This document shows positions 24,710-31,813 of a stretch of 36,657 nucleotides of DNA, one piece after another. The DNA is taken from assembly GCF_023716925.1 (NCBI RefSeq), contig NZ_JAMQQG010000291.1, forward strand, positions 1 through 36,657. Reading direction: 5' to 3'. Made by a program: the position numbers and the translations under genes. This DNA is from Frankia sp. R82 (lineage in GTDB: Bacteria; Actinomycetota; Actinomycetes; Frankiales; Frankiaceae). Numbering within the stretch: position 1 is the first letter of the stretch; each line of letters begins with the position of its first letter. Below the pieces are notes generated by a model, which saw only the letters and a list, made by a program, of their open reading frames with translations, had not been told where the DNA came from and did not search any database.

Positions 24710-25465
24710 ATGGTCACGACGAGGAGCACGACGCCGCGGACCACGAGGACGGGGAGCCCGGCGCACGACCCGCTGGGCGTGCTGCCCCGGCGGGCCGGCG
24801 GCCTCCCCCACGAGGTGGCGCTGAGGACCGCTCCGGGCAGCCACGGGGGCGCGGTCCGGCAGGTGTGGATCGAGGCGGACGAGGCCGGGGTGCTCGCCGA
24901 CTGGGACGAGTGGGACCGCGTCGAACTGATGGCGGCGGGACGTCCGTTCGTGCTGGAACGCGACCTGGACGGTCGAGGGGTGCGGCTGGTCGAGCCGATG
25001 GGGCGCGACCCGGTCGCCGCCTTCACCCCGGCGCGGGTCGGCGGCCAGGTGCTGCTGGCGGACGGGACGGTGCTGCGCTGGCTCGAGCCGACCCGCGCGG
25101 TCTTCGAAAGTGGTCTGGTGGGTTACCGGGGCGTCAACATCATCCGGTTCGCCATGGACGGCACGGCGCTCGTGCTCGCCGCGCTCGACCTGACCGAGCC
25201 GCCGCACCCCACCAGGGCTTCGCTGCCCCGCCGGCCGTTGCAGGCCACCCGGCCGGCATGGTCAGCCCGGCCGGCGAGGGTGGGGGCGGGGTCGGCGGAC
25301 GTGGGTTCGGGGGATACCCGTCGGGGGGATCTCCCGGACCCACGTCGGGGCTGGCGGCCCGATCTGGTGGCACTGCTGGTGCTGAGCTGGTTCGTGCGGC
25401 TGCTGGAGGTGCGGCCGACCCCGCCCGCCGAGGTTCGCTCAGGTGTTCGCCACCTGGGTGTTTGA
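24710..25465 (+). CDS. Hypothetical protein
   Basis: 251 residues, not recognised. ATG 24710 follows GGAGGTGA (24693-24700). The first 25 residues are rich in Thr and Arg. Residues about 45-160 look like a compact beta-rich domain (VRQVWIEADEAGVLADWDEWDRVELM, RPFVLERDLDGRGVRLVEP, VLRWLEPTRAVFESGL, VNIIRFAMDGTALVLAALDL). A Pro/Arg/Gly linker follows, then a hydrophobic C-terminal helix DLVALLVLSWFVRLLEV that may touch the membrane. The stop codon overlaps the -35 of the SOS promoter, so it is probably not part of the damage operon. No function is proposed. Confidence 0.7.
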   Translation: MVTTRSTTPRTTRTGSPAHDPLGVLPRRAGGLPHEVALRTAPGSHGGAVRQVWIEADEAGVLADWDEWDRVELMAAGRPFVLERDLDGRGVRLVEPMGRDPVAAFTPARVGGQVLLADGTVLRWLEPTRAVFESGLVGYRGVNIIRFAMDGTALVLAALDLTEPPHPTRASLPRRPLQATRPAWSARPARVGAGSADVGSGDTRRGDLPDPRRGWRPDLVALLVLSWFVRLLEVRPTPPAEVRSGVRHLGV

Positions 25466-25491
25466 CGAGCCCGCCCGGCGCCAGCTACCTT
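25462..25491 (+). promoter_or_regulatory. Promoter of the SOS mutasome operon
   Basis: TTGACG (25462-25467) is followed after 18 bases by TACCTT (25486-25491). A transcript would begin near 25498, right at the LexA box, so repressor binding would block it. Confidence 0.6.
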
Positions 25492-31400: not shown

Positions 31401-31813
31401 TGAGCGAGGCCGAGGAGTCGTTGGCCGACCTGTGGGCGACCGGGATCACCCCCGCCGGGTACCCGACCCGGTTCCTGCGGGAACGGCTCGCAGCCCAGGG
31501 GGTGACCACCGCCGCCGGGCTACAGGCGGTGACCGCGGGCCGGCGTGTTCTCGTCGCCGGCATCGTCACCCACCGGCAGCGTCCCGCAACCGCGGCTGGG
31601 ACCACCTTCGTCAACCTGGAGGACGAGACCGGTCTGGTGAACGTGATCTGCTCGCCGGGCCTGTGGACCCGCCACCGCACGGTAGCCCGGACCGCCACGG
31701 CGCTCGTGGTGCGCGGGCGGGTCGAACGGGCCGAGGACGTGGTCAACGTGATCGCCGAGCGGATGTGGCCGCTTTCGGTTTCCGTCCCCCGCCAGTCCCG
31801 GGACTTTCGGTGA
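28472..31813 (+). CDS. dnaE2: Error-prone DNA polymerase III alpha subunit DnaE2
   Basis: 1113 residues. The ATG lies inside imuB with GGAGG 6 bases upstream. A variable 55-residue N-terminus precedes the PHP domain ([30 protein letters not shown]). The polymerase core has [17 protein letters not shown] and the catalytic aspartates in [25 protein letters not shown] (about residue 451). [22 protein letters not shown] and [21 protein letters not shown] follow. Near the C-terminus are a helix-hairpin-helix region and an OB-fold stretch ([28 protein letters not shown]). A Pro/Gln/Val insert lies at about 523-543. DnaE2 carries out damage-induced mutagenic synthesis with ImuA' and ImuB; the upstream LexA box fits this. 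Confidence 0.95.
   Translation: [1113 protein letters not shown]

Follow-up and report, generated by a model that had tools for sequence, protein, structure and literature searches.

A gene of the HEPN_SAV_6107 family (PF18726) heads a run of mutasome genes in Frankia sp. R82, immediately behind a LexA box. Across the class, the finding is broader than was first claimed: the HEPN gene is LexA-boxed, accompanies two polymerase systems and is required by neither. Damage-induced mutation in actinobacteria is driven by DnaE2 mutasomes, whose composition has been worked out mostly in mycobacteria. A conserved, LexA-boxed extra gene that occurs with two mutasome types, and that is absent from the sampled Mycobacterium-like genomes, points to a possible further layer of the SOS response. 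Because HEPN lies behind a LexA switch in much of the actinomycetes, and frequently shares a gene run with an error-prone DNA polymerase, it is likely an overlooked helper of damage-induced mutation. Our preferred reading, held tentatively and with close to an even chance of being correct, is that HEPN_SAV_6107 is induced in the SOS response and assists error-prone DNA synthesis as an accessory, rather than as a subunit of the mutasome core. The HEPN protein would be repressed by LexA, induced by damage and co-produced with the error-prone DnaE-type polymerase that its locus happens to contain: ImuA'-ImuB-DnaE2 here, and DUF6504 with a second DnaE2-like polymerase (DnaEx) in many other families.

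The features of the locus are collected in Table 1, numbered within the window (the whole 36,657-nucleotide stretch of Frankia sp. R82 DNA that was analysed). A sequence-only reading of this DNA had placed a perfect LexA box before a run of HEPN, imuA', imuB and dnaE2, and its coordinates, order and spacing proved right. The three mutasome genes are in cassette order; 6 bases separate HEPN from imuA', imuA' and imuB overlap by 1 base, and imuB and dnaE2 overlap by 8 bases. The four genes are presumably co-transcribed, and the run would be induced by DNA damage in the Frankia host. For HEPN, the GTG at 25532 is the better start, since a longer alternative beginning at 25508 falls inside the LexA box and the GTG is preceded by GGGGAGGG. 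All Pol IV models score under their cut-offs against imuB in a profile search, and the window dnaE2 groups with the ImuA'-ImuB-linked DnaE2 clade in a tree of 47 proteins. A Pfam search matched no family to the ORF upstream of the box. Upstream of the HEPN locus also lies a large regulator with BTAD, NB-ARC and TPR domains (20325–24407, minus strand). A sigma-70 consensus promoter was sought at 25300–26300 and none was found, this consensus not being telling for the phylum. Two proteins searched against a defence-system library gave no match.

Table 1 Features of the HEPN-mutasome locus in the window.
Feature	Position	Strand	Basis or remark
Uncharacterised gene, ending 34 bases 5' of the LexA box	24710..25465	+	clustered in 7 loci of the first 60
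LexA (SOS) box TCGAACTCGTGTTCGA, predicted	25500..25515	+	motif search; kept upstream of HEPN in relatives
Probable ribosome-binding site GGGGAGGG, preceding GTG 25532	25520..25527	+	read from sequence
HEPN_SAV_6107 (PF18726), 187 aa, GTG start	25532..26095	+	Pfam 117.1 bits, cut-off 27.2
HEPN residue R76	25757..25759	+	numbered from GTG 25532
HEPN residue H81	25772..25774	+	numbered from GTG 25532
HEPN residue R134	25931..25933	+	numbered from GTG 25532
imuA'	26102..26875	+	NF058630, 172 bits, cut-off 65
imuB, Y-family homologue	26875..28479	+	PF00817
dnaE2, error-prone C-family polymerase	28472..31813	+	NF004225, 1530 bits, cut-off 939
SAM-dependent methyltransferase (MT), common downstream neighbour of the HEPN locus	32097..32948	+	
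ORF with DUF3040 (PF11239), common downstream neighbour, towards mraZ-mraW	32951..33733	+	

The core of the LexA box, GAACTCGTGTTC, occupies 25502–25513. The pattern GAACN4GTTC occurs twice in the window against 0.17 expected from shuffles, and the 16-mer TCGAACTCGTGTTCGA has three copies in the 6.9-Mb genome against one for a reversed-pattern control. The second exact GAACN4GTTC (9356–9367) is probably a chance occurrence; it falls inside a minus-strand ORF (8384–10003) that looks, by eye, like a carotenoid or phytoene desaturase. The box before HEPN agrees with tCGAAC-N4-GNNCGa, the LexA motif given for Streptomyces venezuelae (PMC9380542).

The box is conserved with the HEPN gene. Exact GAACN4GTTC was found upstream of HEPN in 91 of 108 loci and six control patterns in 0–3 of 108, counted over 760 bases that reach 60 bases into the HEPN domain, with two loci dropped for short upstream sequence. 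Full TC..GA flanks are present in 80 of the 91 boxed loci, in which the median distance from box to next in-frame start is 27 bases. A stricter 700-base interval, on which the per-class counts are based, holds the box in 90/108 HEPN loci. Over the same interval, the box was scored in front of other genes in 0/72 cases for DUF3040, 0/43 for MTHFR, 0/23 for MraW, 1/54 for DinB and 9/50 for MT, the last probably because the MT start often lies less than 700 bases from the HEPN box. Wherever a polymerase, or what is left of one, adjoins HEPN at a scorable locus, the box is present: HEPN-imuA'-imuB-dnaE2 (8/8), imuA'-imuB-dnaE2-HEPN (3/3), HEPN-DnaEx (37/37), HEPN-(MT)-DinB (16/16) and a dnaE2 remnant (1/1). 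It is also present at loci with no adjacent polymerase (class F, 16/21; class D, 5/18), so it is a feature of the HEPN gene itself and not of the mutasome alone. At loci that contain DUF6504, the box sits 5' of DUF6504. The loci unboxed in the 700-base interval comprise ten from family f18, three from f4, two each from f17 and f13 and one from f32. L059 and L080, unboxed by this measure, are boxed under a looser anchor; L055, L056 and L058 have one-mismatch boxes, and L052, L053 and L220 have no box. The box is absent from all ten HEPN loci of the Streptomyces-like f18, as it is from a named Streptomyces locus with the f18 gene order (L136).

The distribution of HEPN was surveyed in 148 evenly drawn genomes of the class, with HEPN scored as a PF18726 match and ImuA' as a match above the curated cut-off; HEPN was found in 110 genomes and ImuA' in 59. 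All 110 HEPN loci, the window included, were retrieved and classified. Eight have the order HEPN-imuA'-imuB-dnaE2 (families f1 and f37) and three imuA'-imuB-dnaE2-HEPN (f31; in G058, imuA' is on a separate contig). In 37 loci from 19 families the arrangement is HEPN-DnaEx, preceded by DUF6504 in 36. A further 17 loci are HEPN-(MT)-DinB, 18 have HEPN with MT or DUF3040 and no polymerase, 22 are of other kinds, one has a dnaE2 remnant and four are truncated by contig ends. The family is all but confined to the class: outside it, PF18726 matched weakly in 3 of 82 genomes (the non-class members of a phylum draw of 90), once above the cut-off and always with an internal stop. A separate scan of named relatives yielded 80 loci, a biased set because selection relied on similarity and on a pattern that overlaps the histidine of R-x4-H. 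The full HEPN-imuA'-imuB-dnaE2 order is present in 43 of these, chiefly from Micromonosporaceae genera, Frankiaceae and Stackebrandtia; seven are partial, cut or decayed, 13 are of the DnaEx type and 17 are neither. The gene order that was at first read from a single genome is thus conserved, with the box in all eight survey loci and the full order in over half of the similarity-selected set. C-family polymerase matches number at least two in 132/148 genomes, and the polymerase number per genome is uninformative. In one f19 locus (L064), a boxed HEPN gene is followed by a PAC2-family gene with no polymerase there, and clustering shows a similar neighbour in other f19 loci.

The second mutasome type is the DUF6504-HEPN-DnaEx operon, in which HEPN stands between DUF6504 and the polymerase (36 of the 37 DnaEx loci, across the 19 families) and the DnaEx domain begins a median of 22 bases after HEPN (37 loci). 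DUF6504 was identified for two proteins and elsewhere by profile; by genomic context it is probably ImuB-C. At a threshold of E 0.001 or better, 67 genomes have DUF6504, with HEPN, by hand tally, next door in 42, elsewhere in 5 and absent in 20. DnaEx proteins reach 1787–1988 bits against their own profile, a value that is in part built in, and 429–559 bits against the profile of ImuB-linked DnaE2. With the DnaEx profile, the f18 DnaE2 of two genomes taken as Streptomyces scores 1464–1469 bits and DnaE1 457–541 bits. The polymerase tree comprised 19 DnaEx, 12 ImuB-linked DnaE2, 13 DnaE1, two f18 proteins and one f25 protein. A branch with SH-aLRT support of 100 separates DnaEx, the f18 DnaE2 and the f25 second polymerase from DnaE1 and ImuB-linked DnaE2, in a tree built from profile-picked ORFs by a quick method with SH-aLRT as its only support measure. 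That DnaEx is the replicative DnaE1 is ruled out, a separate DnaE1-type gene being present in 13 of 13 DnaEx genomes checked. Among those typed, the C-family polymerases adjoining HEPN are DnaE2 or DnaEx and never DnaE1. These operons also rule out a tie of HEPN to the ImuB-linked dnaE2 type only.

DUF6504-HEPN-DnaEx operons are seen among L071–L091 and L172–L221, where they often run on into methyltransferase, DinB and DUF3040 genes. Several small genomes, from f25 and f5 and including G147, have DUF6504 without HEPN; in one f25 genome that was examined, a second DnaE belongs to the DnaEx clade. A metagenome-assembled genome titled Bifidobacterium breve has a DUF6504-HEPN-DnaEx locus (L151), and this title may be wrong, since the small f25 genomes, possibly bifidobacteria, are without HEPN.

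The sequence-only reading had further proposed HEPN as a fourth component of the mutasome. As an obligatory part this is ruled out: HEPN is absent in 11 of the 59 ImuA' genomes, is linked to imuA' in 11 of the remaining 48 (hand tally) and, with its box, survives the loss of dnaE2. The ImuA' genomes without HEPN include every one of the four sampled g7 genomes, judged Mycobacterium-like from their PPE counts (79, 49, 6 and 4). Four Frankiaceae genomes without intact dnaE2 retain HEPN and an exact box (L043–L046); G017 and G142 have one C-family gene each, G072 a 432-aa remnant and G088 two DnaE1-like genes. The same persistence of HEPN and exact box, with dnaE2 gone or fragmented, is seen at Frankiaceae locus L099. 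In f31, the mutasome lies on the opposite side of HEPN, which has its own box. No ORF of the HEPN loci combines HEPN with any other of eleven profiles, and gene fusion thus lends no support to contact with a mutasome protein.

Alternatively, HEPN may be an ancient SOS gene native to the DUF3040-mraZ-mraW region; polymerase cassettes would have settled behind its LexA promoter, with regulation shared and mechanism not. HEPN-(MT)-(DinB)-DUF3040 is indeed a recurring frame that stays constant while its polymerase content varies, HEPN outlasts the polymerase in Frankiaceae, and the box is present without polymerases. However, a mere neighbour does not readily explain why DUF6504 lies between box and HEPN, why the polymerase domain follows so closely in 37 loci of 19 families, why typed C-family neighbours are never DnaE1, or why, in f31, a HEPN gene with a box of its own has the mutasome on its opposite flank. 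We consider this explanation a serious rival, but less likely than that of an SOS-induced accessory.

The AF2 model of the HEPN protein shows a confident four-helix domain (blocks with pLDDT 84–98). Its best structural match is 2hsb (AF0298; Z 14.8, rmsd 2.7, 116 residues), the sacsin HEPN domain scores Z 13.3, and five of the ten best structural rows are titled HEPN; Z is inflated for helical bundles, and only 2hsb and 3o10 lie above 13. Foldseek returned nothing at E 0.001, its best match (0.027) again being 2hsb, and a sequence search of solved structures returned only 2hsb (E 0.16). R76 is conserved in 108/109 loci, H81 in 100/109, R134 in 106/110 and W110 in 110/110, and R76 and H81 are both kept in 99/110. 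H81 is replaced by Y in five f4 loci and by Q in four others, with the gene retained.

The motif R76-x4-H81, which had been likened to the catalytic motif of RNase HEPN proteins, is therefore real and kept in most homologues, but the AF2 model places both residues at the start of helix 2, away from the site by which the HEPN RNase motif is defined. No Rx4-6H is present where helix 3 ends: R134 is kept, and the positions 4–6 further on are E/Q, A and G. R76/H81 as the canonical HEPN RNase site is thus ruled out, and the RNase idea as first argued is not supported. The HEPN-M (SAV_6107) family is listed as actinobacterial with 'No' for Rx4-6H in the 2013 survey of HEPN proteins (Anantharaman et al. 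2013, PMC3710099). Three loci from two families (L081, L083 and L087) have lost both H81 and R134; they account for three of the four R134 losses and are a weak sign of one joint site. As helices 2 and 3 are antiparallel in the HEPN fold, R76, H81 and R134 would be expected to share one end of the bundle. For AF0298 and AbiV, a displaced histidine together with the motif arginine was proposed as the active site, the AF0298 histidine coming from an insert between helices 2 and 3 (PMC3710099). By analogy with this proposal, and given the co-loss of H81 and R134, HEPN_SAV_6107 may have a catalytic or ligand-binding role. For an SOS-induced accessory, the conserved polar end of the four-helix bundle (R76 and H81 where helix 2 begins, R134 where helix 3 ends) would act on a nucleotide or nucleic acid, by binding or cleavage, at or close to the polymerase, with which the protein would interact.

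A bolder form of this reading, which we judge improbable, makes HEPN a class-wide SOS partner of two phylogenetically separate DnaE2 mutasomes that was overlooked because mycobacteria, the model organisms, are without it; at stalled forks, a relocated H81/R134 site would cleave or bind RNA or nucleotides. If true, it would tie RNA handling to mutagenic repair. The same residues could instead serve an SOS RNase that slows growth, cutting RNA and restraining translation during DNA repair independently of any polymerase. Such an enzyme would account for a LexA box that is present whether or not a polymerase adjoins, and for the conservation of R and H in a protein of HEPN fold; its residues would be co-lost as H81 and R134 are, and yafO in the E. 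coli dinB operon is a precedent. The closest fold, AF0298, also belongs to the group with the proposed displaced-histidine site (PMC3710099). Against this stand the unmet helix 3 motif and the family's 'No' entry, as well as the origin of the AF0298 histidine in the helix 2-3 insert rather than in helix 2 (PMC3710099). In addition, H81 is Y or Q in nine gene-bearing loci, the three co-losses come from two families only, and no MNT antitoxin is found among the neighbours named. No nucleotidyltransferase (MNT) gene adjoins HEPN in the window, where imuA' lies downstream and an ORF without Pfam match upstream, nor was one found among those neighbours scanned elsewhere. We regard a polymerase-independent RNase as unlikely, though a serious rival.

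The downstream genes raise the possibility that HEPN acts in an SOS checkpoint on the division and cell-wall region rather than in DNA synthesis. DUF3040, MraZ and MraW are nearby in many loci, and in f4 relatives the gene order is HEPN-DUF3040-MraZ-MraW. PF18726 is recorded in C. glutamicum, where we take cg2381 to be probably the HEPN gene, from its gene numbering near mraZ (cg2378) and from synteny with f4 relatives. Expression of cg2381, a functionally uncharacterised member of the LexA regulon, goes up by 3.86 log2 on ciprofloxacin, equal to recA (PMC5055667, Table 1), and that of mraZ falls (PMC5055667), which counts in favour of such a checkpoint. However, neither sequence nor fold gives any hint of division, and the polymerase is the nearest gene in DnaEx loci. 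We judge a division role very improbable, and the accessory reading remains the one that we favour.

Relative to the published entry for this HEPN family, what differs here is the conserved LexA box and the two mutasome neighbourhoods. The family is HEPN-M (SAV_6107), for which the table in PMC3710099 gives '-' for both architecture and operons. A literature search returned, among the matches listed, no paper tying HEPN_SAV_6107 to mutasomes, a passing mention being liable to be missed; HEPN has no occurrence in the main text of PMC12926913, and parts of PMC3919608 treat DnaE combinations. The locus shares imuA', imuB, dnaE2 and a LexA box with the mycobacterial ImuA'-ImuB-DnaE2 mutasome (PMC10421592, PMC12926913). 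It differs in having HEPN as its first gene, the four Mycobacterium-like genomes sampled being without HEPN. The pairing of DUF6504 with a DnaE2 of Streptomyces type, frequently accompanied by a DinB gene, would fit the description of the DnaE2-[ImuB-C] system, which joins a standalone ImuB-C homologue to such a DnaE2. In contrast to that system, HEPN here stands between DUF6504 and DnaEx, and DUF6504 is only putatively, by its context, ImuB-C. The dinB-yafNOP operon of E. coli is an SOS operon with an RNase toxin gene, yafO, and an antitoxin, YafN. YafO is not a HEPN protein and has its antitoxin, none being seen here, but the two arrangements are alike in that an SOS operon joins a translesion polymerase to a possible RNase.
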